Shown here piece by piece: positions 7,371 to 20,166 of a DNA stretch of 64,000 nucleotides. A program made the translations under genes and the position numbers. The DNA comes from an uncultured Pelagibacteraceae bacterium (GTDB lineage: Bacteria > Pseudomonadota > Alphaproteobacteria > Pelagibacterales > Pelagibacteraceae). Location: the NCBI GenBank assembly GCA_902605865.1, contig CACLEJ010000002.1, positions 1 to 64,000 on the forward strand, in the 5' to 3' direction. Position 1 is the first letter of the stretch; the number at the start of each line of letters is the position of its first letter. The notes beneath the pieces are model-generated. The model was not told where the DNA came from. It saw only the letters and a list, made by a program, of their open reading frames with translations, and searched no databases.

Positions 7371-8234
7371 TTATTTATCTTTAACTGAAATTAATTCTGG
7401 ATACTTATCAAATAAAATATTTGCAGGTCTCTCCCCAGACCTTAATGGATCAATTAGCATCACTTGGCTGGGCATAATATTTGTTAAATTGCAGTCTGTA
7501 CCAAAGAGTTCAAAATAATTAAGGACATCTGAGTACCATCTCACTTCAGCTTCCTTTGGTGACGTAACTTCAAATGCTACTTTATTTTTACCAAAATGAT
7601 CAAGCACTCCAGTTAATACATCTGACTTACTATCATGAAGTTCGATTTCTTCATGATCAATAAGCATTGAAAATGCTCCATATTCAAAAAAAGGTTCGGC
7701 ACTTTCAACAATTTGCTTAAATGTTGCAGGAGTATTTTTTTTTGTTTTATTCCATCCACTTTCTGGATGATGTTCATAAATTATATTCATTCCATTTTTA
7801 ATTGCATGATTGCACCAAGCTTTTATTTGATTTTCAGGGATATCTCCAAATGTATTCATGAATTCCATTGCGGAAAATCCTAAGTCAGACGCAGCATCAA
7901 TAGCTTCATTCACTCTTTCTTTTTTAAAAGCTTTAACAAAGTAACCATGATCCAAGTAAGGTTCTATCGAATGTTTTTTATAAAGCGCTATCTTACGTTC
8001 CAACCATTCCTTTGGATGTCCTAGAACTTGCATTGTTGCAATTTTGACATGATCAATCCTGTCTCCAGCAACCTCAAGAAAGTCTTCTAATTCAAGCAGT
8101 CCCATTCTTTCTTGATACCAAGGACCTTCGTCAAAACCTACGTCTTTCAACCATAGTTGTGATTTGGTTCTAGGTTTAGGTTCGATCGTATTTAAATCAA
8201 ATACTTTTGATATTGAATTTTTTGTTTTAGACAT
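7371..8234 (-). CDS. Phosphosulfolactate synthase (ComA)-family TIM-barrel protein 1
   Basis: The ORF track starts at a TTG (8258); I prefer the ATG at 8234, giving 287 residues. The pattern follows archaeal ComA: a 'YLDHGYFVKAF' strand where ComA has a PGGTLFE-type motif, 'DAASDLGFSAMEFMNTFGDI', 'NGMNIIYEHHPE', 'KVAFEVTSP', and the end motif 'CNLTNIMPSQVMLIDPLRSG', which corresponds to ComA 'VNLANI...LE.LRRG'. ComA adds sulfite to phosphoenolpyruvate in coenzyme M synthesis; relatives include plant HSA32. Coenzyme M synthesis is not expected here, so a catabolic or unrelated role is more likely. It is convergent with the dehydrogenase and divergent from the transporter. Confidence 0.65.
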   Translation of the reverse strand: MSKTKNSISKVFDLNTIEPKPRTKSQLWLKDVGFDEGPWYQERMGLLELEDFLEVAGDRIDHVKIATMQVLGHPKEWLERKIALYKKHSIEPYLDHGYFVKAFKKERVNEAIDAASDLGFSAMEFMNTFGDIPENQIKAWCNHAIKNGMNIIYEHHPESGWNKTKKNTPATFKQIVESAEPFFEYGAFSMLIDHEEIELHDSKSDVLTGVLDHFGKNKVAFEVTSPKEAEVRWYSDVLNYFELFGTDCNLTNIMPSQVMLIDPLRSGERPANILFDKYPELISVKDK

Positions 8235-8324
8235 ATTTTTTGATTTTATATTAGTCAAATAGATGAATTTCTAACCAAAAACGTCATTTTTAATAATCTT
8301 GAGGATAAAAAAAAATATAATTTG

Positions 8325-8354
8325 TTGAAAAACCCATAATGAACACGTTATACT
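8325..8354 (+). promoter_or_regulatory. Candidate sigma70 promoter for the TTT transporter genes
   Basis: TTGAAA at 8325-8330 and TATACT at 8349-8354 are separated by 18 bases. They lie 31 bases upstream of the tctC-like ATG. A strong Shine-Dalgarno run (AAGGGGGG, 8373-8380) sits between, one of the most G-rich stretches in the window, which suggests high translation of the binding protein. Confidence 0.45.
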
Positions 8355-8385
8355 ACTTATAACAATATTCTCAAGGGGGGAAATA

Positions 8386-9459
8386 ATGCGTAAAATTCTA
8401 ATATTAATATTAATGTCGTTATTCTCGTTTGTATCCATTGGAAATGCAGATGTGAATTTCGCAGGCAAAACAGTTACATGGGTTGTGCCATTTAAAGAAG
8501 GTGGTGGTACGAGTAGATTTGCAAGATTTATTCAACCTTTCTTAAAAAAATATTTACCTGGAAATCCTGATGTACAAATCATGCACATACCAGGAGGTGG
8601 AGCTATTAAAGGTTCAAATTATTTTGAAAAAAATGCTAAAGCAGATGGAACTTTTATTTTTGGATGCTCAACTTCAGTAATAGTAAACGTCGCTACTGGA
8701 AATCCACTTGTTAAATATAATCTTAGTGAATATCGACCAGTAGTTTTGTTACCACAAAATACTCATTGGTTCACACGTTCAGATTTAGCTGAGCCTCACG
8801 ATCTATCTAAAATTAAAGAGAGAAAGCTGGTTCTTTATGCATTGAAAACTCCTGCATCTGCAGATTTATTTCACATATGGATTTATGAGAAGCTTGGTAT
8901 CAAAGGAGCTAAACCTATACCTGGTCTTTCATCTTCAGGAGGTTATCAAGCATTCCTAAGAGGTGAAATTCATCTAAGTTCACATGGTGCAGCAAATTAC
9001 GTAAAAAAAGTTAAGCCTGAAATAGAAAAAGGAAAAGTCGTAGATTTAATGACATTAGGAATTATTGGAGCTGACGGTTCAGTTTCTAGAAATCCTTTGG
9101 CACCAAATGCACCTACATTTCCTGAAATGTATGAGAAGGTAAATGGTAAAAAACTTGAAGGTGATGACCTAGAAGCATACTATGCAATAGGTGCTGCATG
9201 GTCTCAAGCATCTAAAGCAATGATGCTTCCAGCAGATGCATCCGATGAAATAGTAAAAGCATACAGAGATGCAGCTATTAAAATGACAAATGACCCAGAG
9301 TTTAAGGCTAAAGCTGTAAAAGCTCTTGGACCATTTCCATTAATCATAGGAGAAGAAGCTGGTGAAATTATTAAAAAGGCTGCAGTATTTTCTGATACTA
9401 CTAAAAAGCAATTAAATGCAGCTCTAAAGAAACATAAATTCACATATAGAGTTCAATAG
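8386..9459 (+). CDS. TTT-family periplasmic substrate-binding protein (TctC/Bug-like)
   Basis: A 357-residue solute-binding protein with a signal peptide at residues 1-22 (ending SIGNA). It has the Bug/TctC pattern: 'VTWVVPFKEGGGTSRFARFIQPFL' near residue 30, which corresponds to the family's PGGGTD loop, then 'MHIPGGGAIKGSNYF', and a C-terminal 'DEIVKAYRDAAIKMTNDPEFKAKA' helix. The first motif is diverged and lacks the usual Asp after Gly-Gly-Thr (Ser instead), so the ligand may not be a standard di- or tricarboxylate. A terminator-like hairpin follows at once, before the membrane component. Confidence 0.85.
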   Translation: MRKILILILMSLFSFVSIGNADVNFAGKTVTWVVPFKEGGGTSRFARFIQPFLKKYLPGNPDVQIMHIPGGGAIKGSNYFEKNAKADGTFIFGCSTSVIVNVATGNPLVKYNLSEYRPVVLLPQNTHWFTRSDLAEPHDLSKIKERKLVLYALKTPASADLFHIWIYEKLGIKGAKPIPGLSSSGGYQAFLRGEIHLSSHGAANYVKKVKPEIEKGKVVDLMTLGIIGADGSVSRNPLAPNAPTFPEMYEKVNGKKLEGDDLEAYYAIGAAWSQASKAMMLPADASDEIVKAYRDAAIKMTNDPEFKAKAVKALGPFPLIIGEEAGEIIKKAAVFSDTTKKQLNAALKKHKFTYRVQ

Positions 9460-18479: not shown

Positions 18480-18526
18480 TGGTGACCCCGCACGGATTCG
18501 AACCGCGGACCTATTGATTACAAATC
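18480..18526 (-). repeat. Duplicated 3' half of tRNA-Thr (candidate att site)
   Basis: These 47 bases match 20091-20137 (the anticodon loop, variable loop, T arm, acceptor 3' strand and CCA of tRNA-Thr) at 46 positions; the single difference is 18485 (A against C at 20096). Orientation is the same as the intact gene, so the two form a direct repeat 1,611 bases apart. The fragment lacks the 5' half and cannot be a functional tRNA. A displaced tRNA 3' end like this is the usual mark left by a tyrosine-recombinase integration. Confidence 0.9.
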
Positions 18527-18621
18527 GAGAGTCTTAATTCAAAAAGATAAATAACATCAACGTTAATTGAAAGTTATTTCAAATCTGTACACACTATAGG
18601 CACAGTGATAAAAGTTTATTG

Positions 18622-19407
18622 ATGATTAAATTAAATCACAAAGAATTAAACGAATACGCAAATACTATTTTAAATGATTATGATAGCAATAATCCAAGCT
18701 CACTTTTTAAAACAAAAATAAAATTAAGCAATAATGATGCGCTACTTATCCAGTCAAAAATCTCAAAATTAAGAATTGATAGAGGTGAAGAAGTTATGGG
18801 CTATAAGATTGGTTGTGTTTCAAAAGATACCCAAAAAAAAATGGGTTTCACTCAGCCTGCTTGGGGAACACTTTGGAAAAGTGAATTATACAAAAGTGGG
18901 GTAGAGCTAAATAAAAAAGATTATTCTAATCCTGCTATGGAAGCTGAGTTTGGTGTTAAGTTAAATCGTGACATAGATCCAAAACTTGTTTCTTTCGATT
19001 ATATACTCAACTCAATCGATTCAATTTATCCTTTAATAGAAATTCATAATTTAGTTTTTAACGGAGAAGAACCTTATGGCGCAGAACTATTAGCAAATAA
19101 TGCATTACACGCTGGCGTTATTTTAGGACCTAAAAATGAATTTTCAAAAGATCAAAAAATAACAGATCTAAAACTAATTTATGATAATAAAACAATAGAT
19201 ACGTGGACAGATAAAAAATGGCCCTTTGATATGTTGTCTGAAGTTGAATGGTTAGTTAAAGAACAAGCCAAGATAAATGTTATTTTAAAAAAAGATGATT
19301 TAATTTTAACTGGGGCGTACGGTTTTCCAGTTCCTATAAATAACAATACATTAATTAAAGTTTCTTCATCAGAATTTGGAGATGTAGAGGCCAAATTTAA
19401 ACAATGA
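18622..19407 (+). CDS. 2-keto-4-pentenoate hydratase / FAH-like family protein (MhpD-like)
   Basis: The track starts at a TTG (18619); the next codon, ATG at 18622, is the likelier start, giving 261 residues. It has the hydratase/decarboxylase pattern: 'GYKIGCVSKDTQKKMG' near residue 60, 'PAMEAEFGVKLNRD' (metal-binding Glu residues) near 108, 'SIYPLIEIHNLVF' near 135 and a late 'DLILTGAYGFPVPI'. The family hydrates 2-hydroxypenta-2,4-dienoates in aromatic catabolism or decarboxylates related acids. No other aromatic pathway gene is nearby. It is the first gene inside the tRNA-Thr-flanked segment and overlaps the next gene by four bases (ATGA). Confidence 0.8.
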   Translation: MIKLNHKELNEYANTILNDYDSNNPSSLFKTKIKLSNNDALLIQSKISKLRIDRGEEVMGYKIGCVSKDTQKKMGFTQPAWGTLWKSELYKSGVELNKKDYSNPAMEAEFGVKLNRDIDPKLVSFDYILNSIDSIYPLIEIHNLVFNGEEPYGAELLANNALHAGVILGPKNEFSKDQKITDLKLIYDNKTIDTWTDKKWPFDMLSEVEWLVKEQAKINVILKKDDLILTGAYGFPVPINNNTLIKVSSSEFGDVEAKFKQ

Positions 19408-19697
19408 AAAAACTTTTAGGGATCGTGGTTCTGGGTTTGATATTGAGTGTAGATGTTTTTGCAGAATATCAAGGTAGATATTGTGAGATGGATGGAGCCT
19501 ATACCGAAAGTGGTAAAGCAGTTTATGGAGAATTTTATATGTATAGTGAAAACTATGGCGAGTCTGACGGTGCCTATACAGAGGACAACGAATATGTTTA
19601 TGGAGAGTGCTATAGGTATAGTGGAAGATATTGTGAAATGGATGGCGCATATACAGACGCTGGTGAGTCAGTTTATGGTGAGTGTTATATTTATTAA
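19404..19697 (+). CDS. Secreted protein of three tandem 25-residue aromatic repeats
   Basis: A 97-residue protein: a signal peptide (residues 1-21, ending VFA), then three copies of a unit with consensus GRYCEMDGAYTE(S/D)(G/N)(K/E)xVYGE(C/F)YxYS, the last lacking its final Ser. Each unit is 75 bases: 19473-19547, 19548-19622, 19623-19694. Units 1 and 3 are closest; unit 2 has lost the CEM sequence (YGESDG). The Tyr/Gly spacing recalls MORN-like hairpins, but no clear MORN match is claimed. Cys residues occur in all units, so disulfides are possible after export. Its start overlaps the hydratase stop. Confidence 0.8.
   Translation: MKKLLGIVVLGLILSVDVFAEYQGRYCEMDGAYTESGKAVYGEFYMYSENYGESDGAYTEDNEYVYGECYRYSGRYCEMDGAYTDAGESVYGECYIY
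19473..19697 (+). repeat. Three tandem 75-base repeats within the secreted repeat protein
   Basis: The repeat unit begins GG(T/A)AGATATTGTGA(G/A)ATGGATGG in copies 1 and 3 and has diverged in copy 2. It stays in frame and so encodes a repeating peptide, as expected of duplication within a coding region. Confidence 0.85.
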
Positions 19698-19850
19698 ATG
19701 AAAAAATTTTTAGTGATAATCTTTATTCTGGGTATACTTGGATATTTAGCTCACTTATGGACTGAAAATATGTGTAGAGACGTAGTTAAAAAATTGAATC
19801 TAACTGGTACAGAAGCTAAAGATAAATATGAAGAATGTAAAAAGTTTTAA
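19698..19850 (+). CDS. Small membrane-anchored protein, 50 residues
   Basis: An ORF below the track's length limit. It begins at the base after the preceding stop codon (ATG at 19698). Residues 1-20 (MKKFLVIIFILGILGYLAHL) are a signal or membrane anchor; the remainder is a charged helix 'MCRDVVKKLNLTGTEAKDKYEECKKF' with two Cys. The tight spacing to the repeat protein and the signal-like start favour a real gene. No family is recognised. Confidence 0.55.
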   Translation: MKKFLVIIFILGILGYLAHLWTENMCRDVVKKLNLTGTEAKDKYEECKKF

Positions 19851-19878
19851 TGCTATGCTTTCAGTAGAATAATTTTTT

Positions 19879-20058
19879 ATGGCAAAAGAATTTCGATATC
19901 TTGTTCAAAATACAATTGTTGAATCAAATAAGGAATTTGAAGAATGGCTAAATGATTGGGGTGATATTGGCTGGGAGTTAATAAATGTTCACATCATAAG
20001 AGAAGAATGGACAGGTACAGGTTATGCAAAGGGAACTAGAGAAGTTTTTAAGTCCTAG
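19879..20058 (+). CDS. Small DUF4177-like protein, 59 residues
   Basis: This ORF is shorter than the track reports. The 'FEEWLNDWGDIGWELINVHII' segment matches the DUF4177 pattern of a helix ending LNxxGxxGWELV followed by a strand. The preceding 'FRYLVQNTIVES' would be the first strand. DUF4177 proteins are small, of unknown function and common in phages and mobile DNA, which fits its place inside the tRNA-Thr-flanked segment, 32 bases before the tRNA 3' end. Confidence 0.5.
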   Translation: MAKEFRYLVQNTIVESNKEFEEWLNDWGDIGWELINVHIIREEWTGTGYAKGTREVFKS

Positions 20059-20090
20059 CAAAAATAAAAAGTGTTGATTTTATTAAGTGA

Positions 20091-20137
20091 TGGTGCCCCC
20101 GCACGGATTCGAACCGCGGACCTATTGATTACAAATC
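20091..20137 (-). repeat. tRNA-Thr 3' half, intact copy of the direct repeat
   Basis: This is the second member of the 47-base direct repeat with 18480-18526. The 1,564 bases between the copies hold four plus-strand genes. The direction fits integration at the tRNA 3' end: intact tRNA, then cassette, then displaced 3' fragment. Confidence 0.88.
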
Positions 20138-20166
20138 AATTGCTCTACCAGCTGAGCTACAAGGGC
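20091..20166 (-). tRNA. tRNA-Thr (UGU)
   Basis: A complete 76-base tRNA with encoded CCA. Acceptor GCCCTTG pairs with CGGGGGC (two G-U pairs), the D arm is GCTCAGCTGGTAGAGC, the anticodon loop TTTGTAA between TTGAT and ATCAA gives UGU, and the T arm has GGTTCGAATCC. Its 3' 47 bases are repeated at 18480-18526. Confidence 0.95.

Follow-up and report, generated by a model that had tools for sequence, protein, structure and literature searches.

A 1.6-kb integrase-less cassette at a tRNA-Thr gene of an uncultured Pelagibacteraceae bacterium and its counterparts in relatives

Positions 18480–20090 of the 64,000-nucleotide stretch of Pelagibacteraceae DNA analysed here (the window) are best explained, with a probability of roughly 0.7, as a 1.6-kb non-autonomous integrative cassette whose integration took place in trans or through accretion with satellites that bear an integrase. 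This cassette is no lone oddity: its class is common across the genus. SAR11 bacteria, whose cells belong to the most abundant groups in the ocean, have been characterised as streamlined, with little mobile DNA.

The unit in the window

The repeat unit (18480–20090, 1,611 bp) is delimited by two copies of the 3' half of a tRNA-Thr gene. The integration target, an intact tRNA-Thr(TGT) gene identified by ARAGORN, lies on the minus strand at 20091–20166, and its 3' half (20091–20137) constitutes the second att copy. The distal copy is a minus-strand fragment at 18480–18526, corresponding to tRNA positions 30–76, and represents the att core in its displaced chromosomal version. Both copies are in direct orientation, share 46 of their 47 bases (the sole mismatch being G71T), and span the anticodon loop, the T arm, and the CCA. 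In a scan of the 64-kb window with a 40-nt probe and up to 7 mismatches allowed, the fragment was the sole extra copy among the 3' halves of the five tRNAs tested, and so is no chance match. Beyond it lies the dmdA 3' end, which in L039, a relative with an empty site, comes directly after the tRNA, and the neighbours of the cassette in the window are this DMSP demethylase-like gene (dmdA) and an rlmB-like gene.

The two tRNA copies enclose four ORFs, all on the plus strand (261/262, 97, 50, and 59 aa). The first gene (18622–19407, 261 aa), whose ATG stands 95 bp from the core, encodes a protein resembling 2-oxo-hept-4-ene-1,7-dioate hydratase or 2-keto-4-pentenoate hydratase, with a match to NCBIfam TIGR02312 (E 5e-22) that falls below the equivalog cutoff. 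It is followed by a predicted secreted protein with internal repeats (19404–19697, 97 aa) and a small membrane protein (19698–19850, 50 aa), neither of which belongs to a family, the latter having a copy with 90% identity inside the tRNA-Thr segment of L056. The fourth gene (19879–20058, 59 aa) is weakly DUF4177-like (PF13783, E 3.6e-4, under the gathering score). Domain and family searches found no integrase among these four proteins, and satellite replication and packaging genes are absent from the cassette; the only Phage_integrase-family gene of the window genome lies ~80 kb away. The original prediction, which had described the direct 47-base copy of the tRNA-Thr 3' half and the four plus-strand genes with no integrase between the copies, is borne out on both counts by the tRNA annotation, the ORF list, and the domain searches. 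The cassette that it outlined is also real, but the bounds required correction: the unit ends at 20090, 20091–20137 being the second copy of the repeat.

The tRNA-Thr site and the cassette ends in relatives

Orthologous loci (L handles) were taken via rlmB from 80 Pelagibacteraceae records and from further genomes (G handles); the two sets partly comprise the same assemblies, and their counts are kept separate. At 32 of the 80 loci, the next conserved gene, dmdA or a NAD-kinase gene, begins 4–10 bp from the tRNA, with nothing in between. Clean empty sites account for 30 of them; the other two hold a truncated tRNA copy upstream (L103) or a fragment beyond the NAD-kinase gene (L107). At least one unit ending in a tRNA-Thr 3' fragment is present at 25 of the 80 loci, 16 hold other content with no recognisable fragment, and seven were assigned to no class. 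Units are mostly of 0.8–2 kb (median ~1.5 kb over 24 small cassettes), some measure 3.5–7.5 kb, and two cassettes stand in tandem in L048, L057, L060, L061, L074, and L080. The tRNA-Thr gene is, therefore, a real integration hotspot in these relatives: the empty sites, alternative contents, and tandem cassettes support the tRNA-targeted insertion originally predicted, and the same genes are not present in all relatives.

When the cassette DNA was compared with 201 genomes, the cargo differed, whereas short modules at both ends (A, ~90 bp, and C, ~30 bp) recurred. The A arm (18527–18621, plus strand), an attP-like leader that extends from the core to the first cargo ATG, is 85–95% conserved over 84–99 bp in over 20 further genomes, where it also adjoins a tRNA-Thr fragment. 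The C arm (20059–20090), the end of the cassette that abuts the 3' end of the intact tRNA, is represented beside tRNA-Thr in relatives by 31–33 bp at 81–94% identity. A arms fall into families, with F1–F4 present in small cassettes and F5 in large ones. The window's arm, of the F1 type, bears a repeat (CACTGTGCCTATAGTGTGTACAGA, 18584–18607, minus strand) exactly 57 bp from the core, the form expected of an F1-type arm being TGTGnnnATAGTGTG at about 57 bp. The F1/F2 arm motif has 22 matches in the 201 genomes, compared with none for a reversed-pattern control, and in 21 of them the repeat stands exactly 57 bp from the tRNA-Thr core, the 22nd running off the end of its contig. Since the repeat taken alone scores no better than shuffled sequences in many F1 arms, including that of the window, the case is built on this constant position rather than on the significance of individual arms. 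A composite query that joins the A arm, core, and C arm of the F1 family is 97–100% identical to the tandem junctions of G075, G196, G071, and G173, and recovers 132 of 399 genomes at E 1e-20 or better, mostly through the core and the C arm. No promoter-like hexamers were found in the A arm, in a scan that was overall no richer than chance, and neither the F1 arm, the C arm, nor the F1 arm-core junction had matches in the viral collection.

The cargo is also arranged in a fixed manner. The first cargo ATG stands 92–97 bp from the core in 28 of the 46 measurable fragments, and those 28 first genes fall into 24 unrelated groups. Moreover, 48 of the 50 ORFs of at least 50 aa in 24 small cassettes are read away from the A arm. 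Domains encoded in small cassettes include MORN, TPR, trypsin-like, Mrr, PLD, T5orf172, and polysaccharide lyase, and large F5 elements carry restriction-modification systems. No integrase family match was found among 82 cassette proteins of relatives. The tRNA-Thr elements of 3.5–7.5 kb in L046, L059, L070, L072, L077, L087, and L095 have an arm family of their own; most of them encode restriction-modification genes, and no integrase was found in them.

Movement of cassettes and the enzyme involved

The window's A arm and hydratase gene are 97% identical over 881 bp to those of G024 and G235, while the rlmB and NAD-kinase genes of the window share only 75–78% of their DNA sequence with these genomes, and the downstream neighbour is different (dmdA versus NAD kinase). 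These comparisons show signs of a recent movement of this cassette type between divergent species with no integrase aboard. In L046, L050, L059, and L063, the intact tRNA carries A59, whereas the displaced fragment keeps G59, which is also the common allele among empty sites. Such a pattern would follow from replacement of the tRNA 3' half upon integration. The reverse pattern (intact G59, fragment A59) occurs in L060, L074, and L157; it requires elements that carry G59, and its support is less direct.

The window, G024, and G235 remain nearly identical across the hydratase gene and the opening ~36 bases of the gene after it, beyond which the sequences are unrelated. This stretch, here called module B (19404–19439, plus strand), comprises the initial 12 codons of a signal-peptide sequence, encoding MKKLLGIVVLGL, and is conserved at the DNA level, with the gene bodies changing after it. 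The fetched loci hold 64 distinct copies fronting many unrelated genes for secreted proteins, many of them inside tRNA-Thr or tRNA-Met cassettes and others elsewhere. Codons that are rare in this genome are conserved in it: GGG in 50 of the 64 copies (5% of background Gly codons), ATC in 56 (8%), GTG in 46 (8%), and CTG in 42 (3%). Module B may be a homology tract where gene bodies are exchanged. The peptide string MKKLLGI was not mentioned in the literature searched.

Other arrangements were observed around these tRNA genes. In L078 (10769–12355), L103 (10772–19006), L198 (5492–10438), and L201 (7687–9325), a truncated 5' part of tRNA-Thr, reaching tRNA position ~41–45, lies near rlmB, and the intact tRNA stands further on; these are insertions of opposite polarity at the same tRNA-Thr. 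In L157 (6830–6876) and L107 (14624–14670), a tRNA-Thr fragment with an F1 arm is located past the NAD-kinase and tRNA-Leu genes, away from tRNA-Thr. In L138 (249–9727; G055), about ten copies of module B follow each other over ~9.5 kb beside tRNA-Thr, where no tRNA fragment was seen. In L143 (2841–4749) and L148 (1898–4558), a tRNA-Met gene and downstream copies of its 3' half bound module-B genes; these units are cassettes of the same kind, but at a second tRNA.

Among integrase-bearing elements, viral contig L116 holds the exact 47-bp tRNA-Thr core, the repeat TGCGGACATAGTGCGGACAGA, and an integrase gene that starts 102 bp from the core. It also encodes AAA_25 and Terminase_2 (small terminase) proteins, a combination that leads to its reading as a phage satellite. 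In its integrase (7478–8461), the catalytic motif close to the tyrosine reads GN where GH is usual. Pelagibacter G307 encodes an integrase 73% identical to that of L116, which starts 103 bp from a tRNA-Thr fragment abutting the NAD-kinase gene, and a 76%-identical integrase is found with the same layout in G312, in a ~6.4-kb element at tRNA-Asn. This satellite-like element (L258, 11277–17787) has arm-like repeats at both ends. A recombinase whose att core matches the 47 bases, for which a search had been proposed, is thus present in L116, but the genomes and the viral collection searched yielded no integrase associated with an F1 arm like that of the window. The L116, G307, and G312 integrases are probably not the direct enzyme of the F1 cassettes, because the arm repeat of the known tRNA-Thr integrases (L116 and G307) lies 67–71 bp from the core, versus 57–59 bp in F1.

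The L116 integrase had no relatives in the viral contigs except itself and one distant match, and no annotated phage record contained the exact core, the matches being complete phage tRNA-Thr genes or distant integrases. Most viral contigs with the 33-bp core were rejected as att carriers, as they hold full phage tRNAs; viral contig L115 (779–854) has a full-length tRNA-Thr gene whose sequence is identical to the Pelagibacter one. An integrase on the tRNA-Thr contig of G072 was likewise discarded as the cassette enzyme, being located beyond the NAD-kinase gene among phage genes. No locus was seen where an integrase-bearing element and an integrase-less cassette stand side by side at tRNA-Thr, the element at this site in G307 bearing an integrase.

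According to the preferred reading, the attP would consist of the tRNA-Thr 3' half (core) between two short arms, C and A, and the cassette would sit in the tRNA-Thr attB, with the incoming core restoring the tRNA. The A arm and the core would be equivalent to the structure that precedes the integrase gene in satellite-type elements, with the cargo operon in place of this gene; the cargo stands near the position of the satellites' integrase, as judged from the distances of both starts to the core (92–97 versus 102–103 bp). A tyrosine integrase acting in trans would carry out integration and excision or, alternatively, the cassette would accrete beside a satellite or prophage that occupies the same tRNA and encodes an integrase. 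The original prediction had left open a decayed element or a cassette moved in trans, and the latter is favoured by the fixed attP-like arms, the fixed cargo start, the many unrelated cargoes, and the recent integrase-less transfer. A trans-acting enzyme, cargo expression from the arm, and current mobility are inferences, the first because the searches yielded no integrase that bears the window's arm family.

The cassette could instead be the immobile remnant of a larger satellite or prophage that lost its integrase and most of its genes, and is now inherited only vertically. The lack of a cognate integrase in the window genome, the mutated fragment (G71T), and the use of the same tRNA by integrase-bearing elements agree with this explanation. 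However, independent decay would not fix the start of the cargo at one position across 24 unrelated groups of genes, nor confine sizes to the narrow range of 0.8–2 kb (median ~1.5 kb), the cores and arms are intact in tandem arrays, and this cassette has recently passed between divergent species in the absence of an integrase, all of which makes a remnant rather unlikely.

Two further explanations concern how the cassettes move. Homologous recombination through the conserved flanks and the tRNA, following DNA uptake or transduction and with no site-specific enzyme acting at present, draws on a process that is frequent in SAR11 (PMC2217521); in addition, module B and the tRNA offer short homologies, and breakpoints do occur at module B. 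It is nevertheless highly improbable, as the flanks of the window, G024, and G235 are only ~75–78% identical at rlmB and NAD kinase and differ in the downstream neighbour, and the duplicated cores and the switching of tRNA alleles are the signature of site-specific integration. Scarcely credible is that the mover is the resident tyrosine recombinase of 305–325 aa, of another type and present as a single copy in most of the 201 genomes, even though it is the sole member of the family in the window genome and most relatives. This protein comprises only the Pfam SAM-like and catalytic domains, a Xer-like layout with no visible arm-binding region, whereas the arm-type repeats of the cassettes suggest a phage-type integrase.

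Relation to known systems and significance

Cassettes bounded by tRNA fragments are already known from other streamlined marine bacteria, namely the additive flexible genomic islands (fGIs) of Ca. Actinomarinales (PMC7771536) and fGI-2 of Ca. Methylopumilus (PMC10872708). As far as the available portions of these sources go, the window shares with them a streamlined aquatic host, small tRNA cassettes, and direct repeats of the tRNA 3' part, and the SAR11 cassettes likewise encode many proteins of unknown function. Its locus class shows the small variable cassettes between tRNA-fragment repeats that define additive fGIs. These portions describe other lineages and tRNAs, repeats of 20 bp and sizes of up to 42 kb in Methylopumilus, and they do not mention arms, a fixed cargo start, an integrase counterpart, or a signal-peptide junction. 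Tycheposons, as presented in PMC10872708, are also tRNA-associated cargo elements of a streamlined marine bacterium but, unlike the window cassette, measure 4–200 kb and are associated with a tyrosine recombinase. No description of tRNA-Thr cassettes in Pelagibacter was found in the literature searched, nor one of the tRNA-Thr site in the accessible part of PMC7318151. The arm architecture, the layout with cargo in place of the integrase, and the DNA-conserved signal-peptide junction are new.

With tRNA-targeted elements in general, the unit shares the intact tRNA with a displaced fragment and the empty site, but not an integrase of its own. PICI-type phage satellites have a tyrosine integrase and a tRNA att site, as does L116 with the same tRNA-Thr core, while the window cassette lacks satellite genes and has only ~1.6 kb. 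CIMEs are att-flanked, integrase-less elements that accrete in tandem at one tRNA, although they derive from ICEs and are larger. The window cassette resembles such products of ICE and IME accretion in its att flanks and the absence of an integrase, and no conjugation genes were seen in the cassettes analysed here.

Like integron cassettes, these units are small, interchangeable, uniformly oriented, and found in tandem, with the enzyme encoded outside the cassette. Contrary to integrons, however, recombination takes place at half of a tRNA gene flanked by arms of the phage type rather than at an attC, there is no IntI, and many SAR11 tRNA-Thr cassettes hold several genes. No attC sites are reported for the SAR11 hypervariable regions, one of which is flanked by tRNAs (PMC2217521). 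As a tentative proposal, which is possible but doubtful, an integron-like cassette economy may operate on tRNA genes, where cassettes would land at tRNA-Thr (and tRNA-Met), the tRNA half and the phage-type arm would position the first gene for expression, satellite or phage integrases would act in trans on many cassettes, and module B would serve as a second swap point for genes of secreted proteins.

A single tRNA gene with exchangeable integrase-less cassettes in about one third of the genomes represents a concrete, testable route of gene exchange, linked to phage satellites and to the restriction systems that this site also harbours. With arm and core in a constant geometry, the missing integrase can be searched for and excision can be put to the test. 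The cassettes retain docking sequences of the satellite type, but no longer carry the gene for the inserting enzyme. Thus, the streamlined genomes of SAR11 swap genes at one set location, and the enzyme that they use is probably borrowed.
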